Of a stretch of 28,880 nucleotides of DNA, positions 1 through 19,116 are shown one piece after another (within the stretch, counting starts at the first letter, position 1; each line of letters starts with the position of its first letter). A program made the translations under genes and the position numbers. Origin of the DNA: a virus; the IMG/VR virus record IMGVR_UViG_3300026089_000300, positions 1 to 28,880 of that record; one strand, 5' to 3'. The notes under the pieces were generated by a model. The model saw only the letters and a list, made by a program, of their open reading frames with translations, was not told where the DNA came from and made no database searches.

Positions 1-1167
1 ATGTCGAAAATGCCTACGTTTGCGGTTCAGAACACAGCCTATGGATGGCGCGTCCGTGTCCCAAAAGCGCTTTCCGACACCGGCAAACCTCAGTGCAGGT
101 TCTTTCCCGCGCGGCGTGCTGCGGAGGACTTCGCGAAGAAGTTGCGGTCCGAATTTCGAGCCAACGGCGAGAGGGCATCAGTGCTCCCTCCGCGTGTCGC
201 AGATGATGCTTTTCGCGCTTGGACTTTGCTCGAACCGCTCGGCATCAGTTTGACCGAAGCCGCCCGGCGGATTGTTCTGGAGAATGACGAATTGAAGCGG
301 AGCGTGGAAGCCACGTCCGCGCTCGAAGCGTGGGAACTTTCCCTCAAAAACCGGCTGCGCGACTCGACCCGCAAGAGCTACGAACTGACGGCGAAGCTGC
401 TCAAGACGGCACTGGGAAAAGAGATTCTGGCCGGCGTGAAACCCGAGGTGATAGCGGCGGCAATTCAGGGCCCGAGCTACACGTTCCACCGTCGCAATGC
501 CTCCGCGTTCTGGCGCTGGTGCGCCAAGGCTCCTCGCAAGTGGTGCCGCGCGGAGGTGTTCGCCGACGTGGAGACGATTGGCACCAAGAACGAAAACGAC
601 ATTGGCACCCTCGCCCCGGCGCTGGTGAAAAATCTCCTGCGGATCGCGGAAAAGCATTTCCCCGAAACCGTTCCTGTCTATGCGGTTGGCTTTTTCGGAG
701 GCGCTCGCGTCGAAGAGCTGAAGCGGTTGACCGGCGACGAGTTCACAACGGATGGCATCGAGGTCGGCGCATCAATCGCCAAAAAGCGCCGGCGTCGTCA
801 TATCCCGATGAACGACACACTGGCCGCCTGGCTGAAAGCCTATCCGTTTGCGCCGTGCCCGAACTGGGCCGAAAAGCACAAGGCGGTGCGTCGCCTCGCC
901 GGTTGGGATGTTGCCGCCCGCCTGCTCGAAAAGCAACCCAAGCCCACCCTGGGTAAATGGCCGCGCAACGTTATCCGGCACACTCACGCGTCGGCCGAGA
1001 TCGCCAACGGCGCGTCCCTCGAAGACCTGCTTTTCCGATTTGGCCACACCGATGGGCCGGACGTGCTCCGCGCTCATTACGTCGGCCGCTACACCAAAAA
1101 GGATGCGGTCGCTTTTTGGTCGATCGGCCCGAAAGGAAAGACTATTGACCTCCTCAAGTCGGCTTGA
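1..1167 (+). CDS. int: Tyrosine recombinase (phage-type integrase)
   Basis: This 388-residue protein should catalyse site-specific integration and excision of the element. The C-terminal catalytic domain shows the family residues in order: Arg236 in GGARVEEL, basic residues KKRRRR at 261-266 supplying the active-site Lys, Arg326 in NVIRHTHAS, His349 in FGHTD and Tyr360 in AHYVG as the likely nucleophile. The His of the usual HxxR box is Asn323 here. Residues about 105-200 look like a core-binding SAM-like domain. The ATG is the first base of the window, so an upstream start cannot be excluded. A position at the edge of the phage genes fits an integrase next to attP. Confidence 0.93.
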   Translation: MSKMPTFAVQNTAYGWRVRVPKALSDTGKPQCRFFPARRAAEDFAKKLRSEFRANGERASVLPPRVADDAFRAWTLLEPLGISLTEAARRIVLENDELKRSVEATSALEAWELSLKNRLRDSTRKSYELTAKLLKTALGKEILAGVKPEVIAAAIQGPSYTFHRRNASAFWRWCAKAPRKWCRAEVFADVETIGTKNENDIGTLAPALVKNLLRIAEKHFPETVPVYAVGFFGGARVEELKRLTGDEFTTDGIEVGASIAKKRRRRHIPMNDTLAAWLKAYPFAPCPNWAEKHKAVRRLAGWDVAARLLEKQPKPTLGKWPRNVIRHTHASAEIANGASLEDLLFRFGHTDGPDVLRAHYVGRYTKKDAVAFWSIGPKGKTIDLLKSA

Positions 1168-2330: not shown

Positions 2331-2576
2331 TCATTCTTTCCTCCCGCGCTTCCCTGACTTGGGCGCTTGGTCCATCAGTCGTTTGAAGAGGGATTCCGGG
2401 ACTACTCGGAAAGGGAATGTCAGTTCCTTTTGTTCATCCCACGTTTTGGTTAGGCCGCGAATCGAAGCGGCCACCAAGGCGACTTGGGAAATCCCGCTCT
2501 CGTCGGCCACGCGTTTGAGGTCGTCGAGAACATCTTGAGATTGCCGCTGCGACAGGCGGCCTTCGTTTTCTGCCAT
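2331..2576 (-). CDS. Ribbon-helix-helix-like regulator (leftward member of a divergent pair)
   Basis: 81 residues. Residues about 8-45 (LSQRQSQDVL...SGISQVALVAASIRGL) have the pattern of an Arc/CopG-type fold: a short polar strand, a helix, a G-I-S turn and a second helix. Such proteins bind DNA as dimers at short palindromes. The start at 2576 is preferred over the upstream ATGs at 2585 and 2633, because those would place the palindromic operators inside the coding region. It is divergent from the small protein at 2679-2855. I infer a repressor of early genes and of itself; no sequence search supports the family. Confidence 0.6.
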   Translation of the reverse strand: MAENEGRLSQRQSQDVLDDLKRVADESGISQVALVAASIRGLTKTWDEQKELTFPFRVVPESLFKRLMDQAPKSGKRGRKE

Positions 2577-2674
2577 GCCACCCATTGGCACCTTTTGGGT
2601 GGCAAAGTAAAGCGAAAACACGAAACCACCCATTGGGTGGCAAAAAATGATTTACATGCCACCCGTTGGGTGGC
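2576..2674. promoter_or_regulatory. Operator array of three palindromes between divergent regulators
   Basis: Three related palindromes share the half-site GCCACCC / GGGTGGC. The first has TGCCACCCA at 2576-2584 and TGGGTGGCA at 2596-2604. The second is CCACCCATTGGGTGG at 2626-2640. The third is GCCACCCGTTGGGTGGC at 2658-2674, a 17-bp palindrome. The outer sites touch the leftward start codon and lie 5 bp before the rightward one, so bound protein should block both genes. A possible rightward promoter is TTGGCA, 17 bases, TAAAGC, inside the array. Confidence 0.75.
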
Positions 2675-2678
2675 TTCC

Positions 2679-2855
2679 ATGTCCCCAGATATGAGCGCAA
2701 GCACACTCGAAACGAAATTGGCCTGGTATTCCCGAGACACGGGGATTCCGAAACGTGAACTGCGCCGCATGTGCATGCAGGCAGGGCTTGAACAGCTTCA
2801 GCGCGGTGAACTGAAGGTTTCGGCGAAATCGGAGGCCCCGAAGCGGAAGCACTGA
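2679..2855 (+). CDS. Small ribbon-helix-helix-like DNA-binding protein
   Basis: 58 residues, first gene of the rightward early operon. The segment SASTLETKLAWYSRDTGIPKRELRRMCMQAGLEQL has the helix-turn-helix spacing of Arc/MetJ-like proteins, with a Lys/Arg-rich tail. It starts 5 bp after the last operator palindrome. By position it corresponds to a Cro-like partner of the leftward regulator. Function is inferred from size, layout and operators, not from a confident family match. Confidence 0.55.
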   Translation: MSPDMSASTLETKLAWYSRDTGIPKRELRRMCMQAGLEQLQRGELKVSAKSEAPKRKH

Positions 2856-2859
2856 GCCG

Positions 2860-3141
2860 ATGCCACTTCTCCGCCTTCGCATCCTTCACGCCCACGTCCG
2901 GCTGTTCCTCGCTGCGCTGCCGTTCCTCGCCCTGATGCTGCGCCGGCAGCTCCGCACGCCAGCCGGTCGCCGTGGGCTCGCCCGCTTCGCCTTCGAGGCC
3001 GCTGCCATGTTCGGGCTTTGCCACCTCATCGGCTCCCTGCCGGACGTCGCTCACCTCGTGGTCGGTCGCCTCGCCACCGGCGCCCTGATCGGCATCCACG
3101 CTCCCCGCCTTTTCGCCCGCTTTATCTGGAAGACCAAATGA
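2860..3141 (+). CDS. Hypothetical small membrane protein
   Basis: 93 residues, 4 bp after the preceding gene. It has a hydrophobic segment at about 13-27 (RLFLAALPFLALML) and weaker hydrophobic stretches further on, between Arg-rich stretches. Not recognised. Its stop overlaps the start of the excisionase-like gene by ATGA, so it is a true operon member or at least a translated spacer. Confidence 0.5.
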   Translation: MPLLRLRILHAHVRLFLAALPFLALMLRRQLRTPAGRRGLARFAFEAAAMFGLCHLIGSLPDVAHLVVGRLATGALIGIHAPRLFARFIWKTK

Positions 3142-3353
3142 AAGCATCTACCGCTCCTGAGTTTCTCAAAGCAAAGCAAGTCGCCGAAAAATACGGCGTC
3201 ACCTCCCGCCACATCACCCAGCTCGCCAACGAGGGCACTATCCCCGGCTTCCGCGTCGGCACCACCTGGCGGTTCGACGCGGAGGAAGTCCACCAGGCCC
3301 TCAAGGACGTGAAGGCCGTCTCCCGGAAGCGCTCCAACACCATCGAGCCGTGA
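3138..3353 (+). CDS. Excisionase-family / MerR-like helix-turn-helix protein
   Basis: 71 residues. FLKAKQVAEKYGVTSRHITQLANEGTIPGFRVGTTWRFDAEEVHQAL is the classic helix-turn-helix plus wing of the excisionase/HTH_17 family. Such proteins bind DNA at att sites or promoters. With an integrase in the same element it could be the recombination directionality factor or an early-gene regulator. The start at 3138 overlaps the previous stop (ATGA) and gives the family length. Confidence 0.85.
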   Translation: MKASTAPEFLKAKQVAEKYGVTSRHITQLANEGTIPGFRVGTTWRFDAEEVHQALKDVKAVSRKRSNTIEP

Positions 3354-3565
3354 CCTATCGCCCCGACCGCACTCGGGCGCTCGACCCGGCCCGCCACACT
3401 ATCATGGGTTATTCCGACGAGGCACTGAACGGAGCCATTGACCAGCTCCGCTCCGCCATCGTCGCCGGCACCGCCCGCTCGTGGGAAAAGAAGCGCCACG
3501 CCGCCTTGCGCGACGAACGCGCCCGCCGCGACCGGAACCGCCGTGGAAAGGATGCCGCCCGATGA
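3350..3565 (+). CDS. Hypothetical small basic protein
   Basis: 71 residues from a GTG that overlaps the previous stop (GTGA). ATG 3404 is an alternative start. The middle (DEALNGAIDQLRSAIVAG) looks helical and the C-terminus is rich in Arg and Lys, as in many small phage early proteins that bind nucleic acid. Not recognised. The four-base overlaps on both sides indicate translational coupling within the operon. Confidence 0.5.
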   Translation: MTYRPDRTRALDPARHTIMGYSDEALNGAIDQLRSAIVAGTARSWEKKRHAALRDERARRDRNRRGKDAAR

Positions 3566-3816
3566 CCCGCCTTGCTCGTCTCCGGCGCGAATCCGCCCGT
3601 GCGTTCCTGCTTTGCACCCTCGCGGGCATCATTGCCCCGCACGCCGCGGGTGGCGCTTGGCTCCTGTTCGCCGTGCATCCGGTCCTCGCGATCCTGCTCG
3701 GCCTGTTCGCCGCCGCCTGCGTCTTCGCCGGCATCTCCTACGGCCGCGAGGCCTCCCGCCTCTTCGCCCACATTGAGCGTGAGGAAATCGAAAAACTCGG
3801 CCTTCCCCGTCTCTGA
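3562..3816 (+). CDS. Hypothetical two-helix membrane protein
   Basis: 84 residues, overlapping the preceding stop by ATGA. Two hydrophobic segments (about 15-37 and 39-58: LLCTLAGIIAPHAAGGAWLL and VLAILLGLFAAACVFAGISYG) are followed by a charged tail ending in EREEIEKLGLPRL. Not recognised. A small inner-membrane protein in an early operon could act in superinfection exclusion, but nothing in the sequence proves that. Confidence 0.55.
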   Translation: MTRLARLRRESARAFLLCTLAGIIAPHAAGGAWLLFAVHPVLAILLGLFAAACVFAGISYGREASRLFAHIEREEIEKLGLPRL

Positions 3817-3818
3817 CC

Positions 3819-4181
3819 GTGTCGCACGTCTTCCTGACGATCACCCTCCCGATCCCGCACAAGTGCCTTTCCCCGAACGCTCGCCCCCATTGGGCGACGA
3901 AGGCCAAGCAAACCAAGATCCACCGCCAGCGGGCGAAGATCGCCACCCTTGAAGTCCTCGCCGGCAACAAGCCGCCGGCCGTCACCGGCTACCGCCTCGC
4001 GTTCTTCTTCCCCACGAACCGGAACCGCGACGACGACAACGCCATGGCGTCGTGCAAGGCCTACCGCGACGGCATCGCCGAAGCGCTCCGGGTGGATGAT
4101 TCCACGCTCGCCCTCGCCGGCCGTCCCACGCTCGCCGTGGACGCTTCCAATCCCCGCGTGGAAATCACGCTTCTCCCCTAA
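3819..4181 (+). CDS. rusA: RusA-like Holliday junction resolvase
   Basis: 120 residues, GTG start two bases after the previous stop. The N-terminus carries the PIPHKCLSPNARPHW motif of RusA. The acidic cluster RDDDNAMASCKAYRDGIAEALRVDD supplies the catalytic aspartates (Asp71-73, Asp84, Asp93-94). RusA proteins are dimeric Mg-dependent nucleases that cut four-way DNA junctions to clear recombination and replication intermediates before packaging. It fits a replication/recombination block with the exonuclease that follows. Confidence 0.88.
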   Translation: MSHVFLTITLPIPHKCLSPNARPHWATKAKQTKIHRQRAKIATLEVLAGNKPPAVTGYRLAFFFPTNRNRDDDNAMASCKAYRDGIAEALRVDDSTLALAGRPTLAVDASNPRVEITLLP

Positions 4182-4202: not shown

Positions 4203-4865
4203 ATGACCCATCACCTATTCATCGACTTCGAAGCACTCGCCCAATCGCCGGACGCCGCCCCCATCGAGCTTGGCGCGGTCCTGTTCGATCTGAACACCGG
4301 GAAAATCTCCGCCGAGTTCCACCGCGTCATCATTCCCAATCCCTGGCTGCGCACGGAAGCCGACACGCTCGATTGGCACGCCGAGCGCGGTTCCTATCCG
4401 TTCGATGACGCCCGAAAGGCCGCGGCCATTCCTCTTCTCAACGCCCTGTTGGAGTTCAAGGCGTGGCTTCAGGTGCTCCCGCCGGCGGAATCCGTCTGGT
4501 CATGGGGAAGCACCTACGATTTCCCGATCCTTGCGACGGCTTGCGCGATGGAACAGCTCGCGATGCCCTGGCACTACGCGCAACAGGAATGCGCCCGCAC
4601 CGTCTGGCGGCGCGCGTTCGGTGATCGCCGGCACGCACCGCGCCCGCATCACGCCTTGGAAGACTGCCGCGCCGGCGTCGCCGATCTGCGCGAGGCCCTA
4701 GCCGCCGAGGCCCGCATCGCATCGGCTCTCCGTTCCGCAATCGCCCGGATAGAAACGATCCGGGAAACGCACCCGGAAATCAGCCTCGACCGCGATCTGG
4801 TCATCTACCGCGCCGCCCTCGCCGGAAAGTTCAGCCCCTCCGAGACAGAAGGAACCGCCGGATGA
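4203..4865 (+). CDS. DEDDh-family 3'-5' exonuclease
   Basis: 220 residues. The exonuclease triad is visible: FIDFEAL (Asp8, Glu10) near the N-terminus, STYDFPIL (Asp106), and HHALEDC (His149/His150, Asp154). The DFEALAQSPDAAPIELGAV start resembles the Rv2179c-like group of phage and bacterial RNase/DNase proteins. It probably trims DNA or RNA ends during replication or recombination. The C-terminal 50 residues are helical. It lies between the RusA-like gene and an unknown gene in one co-directional block. Confidence 0.87.
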   Translation: MTHHLFIDFEALAQSPDAAPIELGAVLFDLNTGKISAEFHRVIIPNPWLRTEADTLDWHAERGSYPFDDARKAAAIPLLNALLEFKAWLQVLPPAESVWSWGSTYDFPILATACAMEQLAMPWHYAQQECARTVWRRAFGDRRHAPRPHHALEDCRAGVADLREALAAEARIASALRSAIARIETIRETHPEISLDRDLVIYRAALAGKFSPSETEGTAG

Positions 4866-4875
4866 TCCCCTGACC

Positions 4876-5535
4876 ATGCGCAACGAACTCCCCGCCCCCT
4901 CGAAGCGCTCTTTCGGTTTCCCGCTGCCCGTTCGCGCTCTCGACTTCTTCACCCATCCAGGCGGATCGCCGCGGGCCGAACTCTTCTCCGAGCCGTTTTT
5001 CTACGCCAGCAGCGTCTACGCCTCCAACGGATTCCTGGCCATCCGCGCCGACCGTTTCGACGGCCTGCCGCCAGCGGAGAACCCGGCAGCCTACGAGCGC
5101 ATCGCCGCGCGGCTCCCCGCCGGCGTCGAGAGCTTCGCCGCCTACACCGCCGACCGCGAGGCCCGCAACCTCATCCCCCGGCCTCGCGCCGATTGGGATG
5201 CCCGCTGGCGGCCGTTTGACGACTGCGGCTTGGCTCTCTGGAAGCGCGGACCGCTCGCCCCTTTCGATTTCGCCGCCGGCCAGTGGCGCTTGCGGAAAGA
5301 CCCAATCGTTCGAGTGGGAGCCGCCTCCTTGGTCCCGCTGCCATTGCTCCAGCTCCTCGCCCGCCTCCCGCGTTCGCAGGCCTGGATCGACAATACTGCC
5401 CGCGGTGGCCTCGTCGTCCGCTTCAATGGCGGCGTGGCCGTCGTCGCGCCGGTCTATGGCGACGCCGTGCCCTCTCCTGCCTTCTCCATTCTCGCACCTA
5501 AAACCGACCTACTCGGCCAGTTCAACACCTTCTAA
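4876..5535 (+). CDS. Hypothetical phage protein
   Basis: 219 residues, starting 10 bp after the exonuclease stop. Not recognised. The segment FFYASSVYASNGFLAIRADRF and the later RGGLVVRFNGGVAVVAPVYGD look like β-strands. They recall short phage proteins with sliding-clamp-like repeats that carry an A-T/S-(D/N)-G turn. That resemblance is weak and would need structure prediction. Its place between exonuclease and replication genes suggests a DNA-metabolism role. Confidence 0.6.
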   Translation: MRNELPAPSKRSFGFPLPVRALDFFTHPGGSPRAELFSEPFFYASSVYASNGFLAIRADRFDGLPPAENPAAYERIAARLPAGVESFAAYTADREARNLIPRPRADWDARWRPFDDCGLALWKRGPLAPFDFAAGQWRLRKDPIVRVGAASLVPLPLLQLLARLPRSQAWIDNTARGGLVVRFNGGVAVVAPVYGDAVPSPAFSILAPKTDLLGQFNTF

Positions 5536-17172: not shown

Positions 17173-17787
17173 ATGTGCAACACCTTCATCCAGCGCCCGA
17201 AGAAAAGCGCCGACGCCTGGCAGGCCCGCGTGAATGAGGCCATCGCCCGGCTCAAGCGGTCGCTCGTCCGAAAGTCCGACCCGGCCGCCGTGCTGGTCAG
17301 CGACGCCGGCGACCTCCGCCCCGCCCTCATGCGCTGGGGCTTCCACCGGCCGTTCAATCCTTCGATCAACAACGCCCGTTCCGACAAGCTGGCCGGTTCG
17401 CTCTGGTCGCCAGCCTTCCGCGAGCGTCGCTGCCTCATCCCAATTTCCTCGTTCTTCGAATGGGGACCCATCCCGCGCGGCTCAAAGCAGGCCTTCGAGT
17501 TCCACCACGTCGACGACGATTGGCTGTGGATCGCCGGCCTGTGGGAGCCCTCGGCCGACTATGGCGACTGCTTCACCATGATCACGACCGACGCCCCGCC
17601 GGTCATGGCCCCGATCCACGACCGGATGCCCGCTGTTCTCGATCTGGATCCGGCCCTGGCCTTCCTCACCGGCGAGTTGTCCGACCTGCGCCCCTATCCC
17701 GGCCGCCTCACGGTCAGCGCCTGCGCCAGTCCTTTGAAAACCAAGGCCAAGCCGCCGCCTGACGATTCCCAAGGGCTTCTATTTTGA
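17173..17787 (+). CDS. SRAP / HMCES-YedK-type abasic-site sensor
   Basis: 204 residues. SRAP proteins attach covalently through Cys2 to abasic sites in single-stranded DNA and shield them from cleavage. The key residues are present: MCNTF (Cys2), NNARSD (Asn67), ISSFFEW (Glu96) and IHDRMPAVL (His149). RCLIPISSFFEWG and FTMITTDAP are family signatures. The chain ends in SQGLLF, matching the QxxLF motif by which proteins bind the bacterial sliding clamp; I infer recruitment to replication forks. It is upstream of a Y-family polymerase on the same strand, forming a damage-tolerance pair. Confidence 0.93.
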   Translation: MCNTFIQRPKKSADAWQARVNEAIARLKRSLVRKSDPAAVLVSDAGDLRPALMRWGFHRPFNPSINNARSDKLAGSLWSPAFRERRCLIPISSFFEWGPIPRGSKQAFEFHHVDDDWLWIAGLWEPSADYGDCFTMITTDAPPVMAPIHDRMPAVLDLDPALAFLTGELSDLRPYPGRLTVSACASPLKTKAKPPPDDSQGLLF

Positions 17788-17807
17788 GCCTCCCCGCCGC
17801 GAGAGAG

Positions 17808-17821
17808 TGTTCATTTGAACT
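17808..17821 (+). promoter_or_regulatory. SOS/LexA-box-like palindrome upstream of the polymerase
   Basis: TGTTCATTTGAACT fits TGTTC-N4-GAAC, the form I recall for the Verrucomicrobiota LexA motif, and lies 47 bp before the polymerase start in the SRAP-polymerase spacer. A damage-inducible polymerase is the expected kind of target. The sequence does not show whether host LexA or a phage repressor binds it. Confidence 0.62.
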
Positions 17822-17868
17822 CTTTTCCAGATTGACGCCGCGGCCTGCCGGGCGCATCGGTCTCGGTT

Positions 17869-19116
17869 GTGGACCTCCCGCTGACCGCCCTGTTCGTGGA
17901 CTGCGACTCGTATTTTGCGAGTGTCGAGCAGCACCTCGATCCGCGCCTACGGGGCAAGCCGGTCGGCGTGGCACCGGTTCTGGCGGAGTCTTCCTGCTGC
18001 ATCGCCGCCAGCTACGAGGCCAAGGCCTTCGGCGTGAAAACCGGCACCGGCATTCGCGAGGCTCGCATCCTCTGCCCCGGCATCCAGATCGTGCAGGCGA
18101 AGCCCGCCGAGTACATCAAGCACCACCACCGGATCGTCGAGGCCGTCGAGGACTGCATCCACGTCGAAAAAGTCCTCTCCATCGATGAGATGTGGGCGTG
18201 GCTGCCGCTCAACCTGCGCGAGCCCTCCACCGTCGAGGCCATCGGCCGGCGGATCAAGGAAACCGTTGCCCGCGAGGTCTCCCCCGTGATCAAGGTTTCG
18301 GTCGGGGCCGGCCCCAACAAATACCTGGCCAAGATCGCCAGCAAGATGCGCAAGCCAGACGGCCTGTTCATCCTGGAAGCCAAGGACCTGCCGCACGTGC
18401 TCCACCCGCTGAAGCTCCGCGACCTGACCGGCATCGCCCGCAGCATGGAAGCCCGCCTGCACGCCTCAGGCATCCACACCGTGGAAGCCCTCTGCGCCGC
18501 GCCCAAGCCGGTCCTGCACGGCGTCTGGGGCGGCGTGCTCGGCGATCGCCTCTGGCACCTGCTACGTGGCGACGAAATCCCGGACCTCGTATCCGCCCGC
18601 AAGACCATCGGCCATTCCCACGTCCTGCCGCCGGACCTCCGCAAGCCGGACGCCGCTTGGGACGTGCTGTGCAAGCTCACCCACAAGGCCTGCGAGCGTC
18701 TCCGTTCCCACGGCCTGCTGGCCGGCAGTCTCACCGTCCAGCTTGCCTTCCTCCGTGATACCAGTTGGGCGCACGAGCTGACCTTCGACGCAACCGACTC
18801 CACGGTCCTGATCTTCCGCCGCCTCGACCGCCTCTGGCGTGACCGCCCGGACCCGCGTGCCCAGCTCCTCCAGGTCGCGGTGGTACTCTCGCGCCTGGTC
18901 GCCAGCATCAATCACACCCCATCCCTGTTCGACGATCCGCTGGACCGCGACACCGACGCGGCGAAACACCGCCGGCTCGACGCCACCATCGACAAGCTCC
19001 GCGCCCGCTACGGCCGCAGCTGCGTCTACTTCGGCACCGTGCAGCCAGCACGCGAAGCCGCCCCGATGCGGATCTCCTTCACCCACATCCCGGACCTACG
19101 GCTTGAGCAGGATTGA
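17869..19116 (+). CDS. Y-family DNA polymerase (DinB/UmuC-like)
   Basis: 415 residues from GTG 17869. Catalytic acidic residues are seen in ALFVDCDSYFASVEQ (Asp11) and VLSIDEMWAW (Asp106, Glu107). The palm and fingers contain GKPVGV and CCIAASYEAKAFGVKTGT. VGAGPNKYLAKIASKMRKPDG and the helix-hairpin-helix thumb region (LRDLTGIARSMEARLHASGIHT) follow, then a little-finger domain. Such enzymes copy past damaged bases and are usually SOS-controlled, which agrees with the upstream palindrome. No strong clamp motif is seen at its own C-terminus, so the SRAP partner's motif may matter. Confidence 0.94.
   Translation: MDLPLTALFVDCDSYFASVEQHLDPRLRGKPVGVAPVLAESSCCIAASYEAKAFGVKTGTGIREARILCPGIQIVQAKPAEYIKHHHRIVEAVEDCIHVEKVLSIDEMWAWLPLNLREPSTVEAIGRRIKETVAREVSPVIKVSVGAGPNKYLAKIASKMRKPDGLFILEAKDLPHVLHPLKLRDLTGIARSMEARLHASGIHTVEALCAAPKPVLHGVWGGVLGDRLWHLLRGDEIPDLVSARKTIGHSHVLPPDLRKPDAAWDVLCKLTHKACERLRSHGLLAGSLTVQLAFLRDTSWAHELTFDATDSTVLIFRRLDRLWRDRPDPRAQLLQVAVVLSRLVASINHTPSLFDDPLDRDTDAAKHRRLDATIDKLRARYGRSCVYFGTVQPAREAAPMRISFTHIPDLRLEQD

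Follow-up and report, generated by a model that had tools for sequence, protein, structure and literature searches.

Three shared palindromes between divergent genes for small ribbon-helix-helix-like proteins in a putative temperate-phage immunity region

The viral DNA analysed here (the window, 28,880 bases) is an entire IMG/VR record, which is linear and possibly a fragment. The record opens with a tyrosine integrase gene (phrog_1, E 6.8e-17) at 1..1167 (+ strand), and genes for an HNH endonuclease and a zinc-ribbon/TM2 membrane protein (1310-2165) separate it from the putative immunity region. The latter consists of two small divergent genes, the left one (2331..2576, - strand) encoding a ribbon-helix-helix (RHH)-like protein of 81 residues and the right one (2691..2855, + strand) an RHH-related helix-helix protein of 54 residues, with three palindromic elements in the gap between them. 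An early operon, recognised by matches to Pfam and PHROGs, lies further to the right (3138..4181, + strand) and includes an excisionase-like HTH_17 gene (3138-3353, + strand) and a RusA resolvase gene (3819-4181, + strand) preceded by small ORFs; genes for an exonuclease, an O-like replication protein and an N6/N4-type DNA methylase follow in the same rightward direction. The layout is that of an immunity region, in which a divergent pair with shared palindromes is flanked by the integrase on one side and the early replication genes on the other. Elsewhere in the window, the interval 17173-19116 encodes a phrog_1599 protein resembling SRAP (YedK-type) by eye and, beside it, a UmuC/DinB-like DNA polymerase (phrog_1268).

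A preliminary description of the locus had located three palindromes of the type GCCACCC(A/G)NTGGGTGGC in the gap, and they are indeed present there, with centres at 2590, 2633 and 2666, i.e. 43 and 33 bp apart. Putative operator site 2 (2625..2641) reads ACCACCCATTGGGTGGC, with the core CACCCA-T-TGGGTGGC, and putative site 3 (2658..2674), just upstream of the right gene, reads GCCACCCGTTGGGTGGC, i.e. GCCACCC-GTT-GGGTGGC; both are compact odd palindromes of the form CACCCR-N-TGGGTGGC. Putative site 1 (2577..2603; 2576-2604 in the preliminary description), which adjoins the left start codon, differs in kind, being a split palindrome with two arms of 8-9 bp, GCCACCCA and TGGGTGGC, and 11 bp between them that hold one additional half-site, CACC. 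A scan with GCCACCCNTTGGGTGGC, allowing up to three mismatches, gave six matches in 28.9 kb, five of them in the gap, against an expectation of 0.6, and none of 100 shuffles reached six; the 13-bp core with at most one mismatch gave four matches, all in the gap, against 0.17 expected. These counts are far above expectation and a chance origin of the palindromes is therefore excluded. At 10.5 bp per turn, the distances of 33 and 43 bp amount to approximately three and four helical turns, and the sites should thus be presented on much the same face of the helix.

The same divergent layout is found in a close relative, IMGVR_UViG_3300042532_000029, whose left and right proteins are 79% and 78% identical to those of the window. 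Relatives of either protein were sought in viral contigs, genome contigs and isolate phages, and those of the left protein alone in plasmids; no other close relative was found in these searches. All three sites are kept in the relative with identical centre spacing (33 and 43 bp), and the palindrome arms agree at 43 of 44 positions, as compared with 39 of 70 in the remainder of the gap and 75% in the coding DNA. In site 1, both arms are identical and the interior agrees at 2 of 11 positions, and the extra half-site reads CACC (rightward) in the window and GGTG (leftward) in the relative; since its orientation flips between the two phages, the outer arms are the conserved part of the site. Retention of the arms amid diverged surroundings is, as far as can be judged from the alignment, the pattern of a protein-binding footprint. 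A scan of viral contigs for the operator-pair pattern matched the relative and two other contigs, L005 and L007, the match in L007 being rejected as an in-frame coding repeat. L005, an otherwise unrelated viral contig, has a long gap (4640-5250) with about ten ACCCANTGGGT palindromes ahead of a gene that probably specifies a terminase small subunit, and encodes neither of the window proteins nor a relative of them.

A candidate leftward promoter, TTGCCA-17 bp-TGTTTT (2615..2643, - strand), agrees with the consensus at 8 of 12 positions; its hexamers are identical in both phages and site 2 overlaps it. A strict sigma-70 consensus scan found no promoter. Sites 2 and 3 are separated by 16 bp (2642..2657, + strand), the most conserved of the spacers (14 of 16 positions identical in the relative), which, judging from this conservation, is probably the core of the rightward promoter, where the consensus match is weak (AAAAAT/AATAAT at 2643-2648).

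The right protein had been described with 58 residues, the length obtained from the upstream start at 2679; the protein is present, but the start common to both phages is the ATG at 2691, giving 54 residues and the conserved beginning MSxxxLE. It was detected with E 6.2e-6, and its homologue in the relative with 6.3e-5, by a profile of six RHH-type proteins from the phages L021, L023 and L027 described below, the window protein being left out; these six have weak matches to Pfam RHH families. The AlphaFold2 (AF2) model of the right protein is a two-helix hairpin with a mean pLDDT of 80 and helices above 90, of which residues 1-38 align to residues 8-45 of CopG and 9-46 of PutA with Z about 4. 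Foldseek searches gave no significant E-value, with RHH chains, including CopG and PutA, at many of the top PDB ranks. No N-terminal DNA-contacting beta-strand is seen in the model from the conserved start, the helix beginning at residue 3. As the model opens with a helix and its residue 1 corresponds to CopG residue 8, the protein has RHH-like helices and, from the conserved start, no strand. Thus, it appears from the model to be devoid of the DNA-contacting strand, an assignment that use of an upstream start might alter. It is best read as the first product of the early operon, occupying the Cro/Arc position.

For the left protein, the best PDB sequence match is CopG (E 0.13, not significant), in exact register, with residues 7-44 placed on CopG residues 4-41. 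The match to Pfam RHH_5 (E 0.12) reaches 12.6 of the 26 bits needed, and RHH matches of this protein fall under the threshold in every library searched. The left protein of L024, a related phage described below, aligns to it in the same register (p 0.015). Its model is poor (pLDDT 56), with helices at 10-27 and 31-47, the segment RLSQRQS before them and no strand modelled, and comparison of the model with the PDB was uninformative. On the basis of the register of these alignments, the left protein is probably an RHH protein. The proposal that both proteins are RHH-like is accordingly borne out for the right one, which is RHH-related by profile (E 6e-6), while the left one remains below threshold; structure prediction likewise returned an RHH-like two-helix model lacking the strand for the former and a poor model for the latter. 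CopG thus comes out both as the nearest sequence to the left protein in the PDB (at the non-significant E-value given above) and among the near folds for the right one; unlike the window pair, it is a single plasmid protein, a copy-control repressor.

Related phages were reached through a search with the RusA gene. In five of them (L021, L023, L024, L027 and L037), the corresponding position, upstream of RusA and beside the integrase where the contig extends so far, is occupied by a divergent RHH-type pair, each with an intergenic sequence of its own; in L037 the right member and the start of the left member are present, the contig ending there. The left protein of L024 exceeds the Pfam RHH_1 cut-off (25.3 bits against 20.5). 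Palindromes lie between the two divergent RHH-type proteins of L021, L023 and L027, and the intergenic motifs are AGTAG..CTACT in L027, GTATACGnnnCGTATAC in L023, GTAGTCnnnnnGACTAC-like in L021 and TTGCA-type in L024. The best palindrome is marginally above shuffled sequences in L021, L023 and L027 (p 0.04-0.06) and not above them in L024 and L037. The intergenic motif differs with each RHH-type pair.

Lambdoid immunity regions are known for block swaps that carry the repressor and its operator together. L024 and L027 share 88.9% identity in the integrase and 92.4% in a 5.2-kb stretch of early genes, and do not align across the RHH pair and the operator; the operator has changed along with the proteins in a block exchange. 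By sequence comparison, this pattern is the hallmark of an immunity region that has been exchanged, seen in the relatives and not in the window phage itself; of the evidence bearing on function, it is the strongest. In L017 (3727-4116), L018 (3263-3679) and L019 (2035-2421), the left gene encodes a protein with a YdaS/CI-like HTH at its N-terminus, matched weakly in Pfam, and a C-terminal part that is RHH-like by eye only, with a right partner of 49-58 residues; these left proteins are possible HTH-RHH hybrids, and Pfam gave no RHH match for their C-terminal halves or for the right partners. No clear RHH-type pair was noticed in a non-exhaustive listing of divergent genes for L015, L022, L025, L026 and L028-L032.

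No match to HTH_3 was found in the window record, in the relative or in nine of the ten records of the group, all linear and perhaps fragments, and none to Peptidase_S24 in the window record or the relative, both of which may be fragments. The contrast with the CI/Cro type drawn in the preliminary description therefore holds for the record, possibly a fragment, in which the searches gave no HTH_3 or S24 domain of the CI type; a CI-type repressor may lie outside it. The resemblance to lambda CI/Cro lies in the divergent repressor and early regulator, the three shared operators and the early operon on one side, whereas the proteins of the window are RHH-like, HTH_3 and S24 domains were not found in its record and site 1 is split.

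The locus is interpreted, with a probability of roughly 0.6, as the immunity region of a temperate phage in which the left protein silences the early operon and the right protein opposes it. The left protein is proposed to be the lysogenic repressor and its own regulator. We infer that it is an RHH protein that binds the sites, that the promoters are related to the sites as outlined here and that the right protein acts against it. The left 81-residue protein would bind the three GCCACCCA/TGGGTGGC palindromes, occupying sites 2 and 3 and, cooperatively, site 1. At site 2 it would cover its own promoter and limit its own synthesis, and at sites 2 and 3 together it would cover the promoter of the early operon, comprising the right protein, the excisionase-like gene, RusA, the exonuclease and the replication protein, so that the lysogen would be silent. 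At the onset of lytic growth, the right 54-residue protein, as the first early product, would oppose or replace the left one. The minimal RHH lysis/lysogeny switch suggested earlier is supported in part, by the immunity-like cassette, with the swap seen in relatives, by the recurrence of the divergent RHH-type pair and by the failure to find an HTH_3 or S24 domain in the record, and is qualified by the below-threshold left protein and the apparently strand-less right one.

The apparent lack of the strand raises the alternative that binding to the palindromes is confined to the left protein, the right one being not a Cro-like repressor but an antagonist that acts by protein contact, e.g. through mixed dimers unable to bind DNA; this is a variant of the favoured explanation, compatible with an immunity role. 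It agrees with the conserved MSxxxLE start, with the model and the alignment beginning at CopG residue 8, past the strand, and with the poor conservation of the DNA just upstream of the right start (7 of 16 positions, with an indel). However, the sequence score between the left and the right protein is within the shuffled range, and the start codon of the right protein is an inferred choice. This variant is unlikely though worth considering, and the pair may comprise a single DNA binder and a partner instead of the two DNA-binding RHH proteins supposed. Folding of the leftward mRNA points to another possibility, namely that the palindromes act chiefly at the RNA level, as attenuator or ribosome-site hairpins, and not as protein sites. 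In both phages this leader folds into a stable hairpin at site 1, the last pair of which adjoins the left start codon (z-scores -2.3 and -2.2; -5.9 for the entire gap), and scans for terminator-like structures also detect the palindromic sites. Nevertheless, RNA folding is expected of any DNA palindrome, and the three sites share identical letters with no compensatory change, as protein sites would, and a spacing fixed at 33 and 43 bp, which makes a mainly RNA-level role very improbable; the site 1 hairpin may provide extra translational control of the left gene.

Antitoxins and centromere binders are common among RHH proteins, and the proteins of the related phages have weak matches to CopG_antitoxin, RelB and HicB, as would befit a toxin-antitoxin or partition locus with an RHH protein. 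In Pfam and PHROGs scans, however, neither gene had a ParA or toxin-family neighbour, and the gene after the right protein is different in the relative; such a locus is the least probable of the alternatives considered. The mnt and arc genes of phage P22 are divergent around shared operators. P22 immI, in which the RHH repressors Mnt (82 residues) and Arc (53 residues) serve the lysogenic and the lytic side, respectively (PMC2629481, PMC7549136), is the closest precedent of the window locus; an RHH repressor pair for opposite phases is already known there, a precedent that the preliminary description, sound in part as to the RHH-pair switch, left unmentioned. The pair may be a secondary immI-type module that controls an antirepressor, with a conventional primary repressor elsewhere. 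Both loci encode two small proteins, RHH repressors in P22 and RHH-like in the window, of nearly equal sizes (82/53 and 81/54 residues; PMC7549136). In L024 (3242-3895) and L027 (3075-3728), the right RHH-type gene is followed at a distance of about 1 kb by a gene with AntA and ANT domains, which recalls immI, and the record of L019 also has an ANT gene. By contrast, no AntA/ANT domain was found in the window record (possibly a fragment), the relative or the records of L021 and L023, and HTH_3 searches showed no primary HTH repressor. P22 immI, moreover, is situated in the late region (PMC2629481), controls ant and coexists with a separate CI-type repressor, c2, whereas the cassette of the window lies between the integrase and the early replication genes, the usual location of a main lysogeny switch, with neither an ant gene nor a CI-type domain found in its record. 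A secondary module is consequently regarded as rather improbable. The Arc-type RHH protein YosL of SPbeta has been implicated in lysis-lysogeny management (PMC10516654); unlike the window pair, it is a secondary factor beside the master repressor MrpR and has no divergent partner.

In the literature searched, which took in few of the subscription journals, no description was found of an RHH pair that serves a group of phages as principal immunity cassette. A class of temperate phages with a divergent RHH-type pair in place of CI/Cro as the primary lysogeny switch, with heteroimmune cassettes passed between phages and, in the lineage of the window, a strand-less antagonist partner, is put forward very tentatively. 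The phage switches of textbooks are built on helix-turn-helix repressors, and RHH pairs are known from the side switch of P22. If a group of environmental phages relies on such a pair as its main switch, that switch would be compact (about 0.5 kb) and its specificities interchangeable. The several naturally varied sets of protein and operator would then be useful for understanding how RHH repressors change their DNA target, and would help explain the unannotated repressor genes of such phages.
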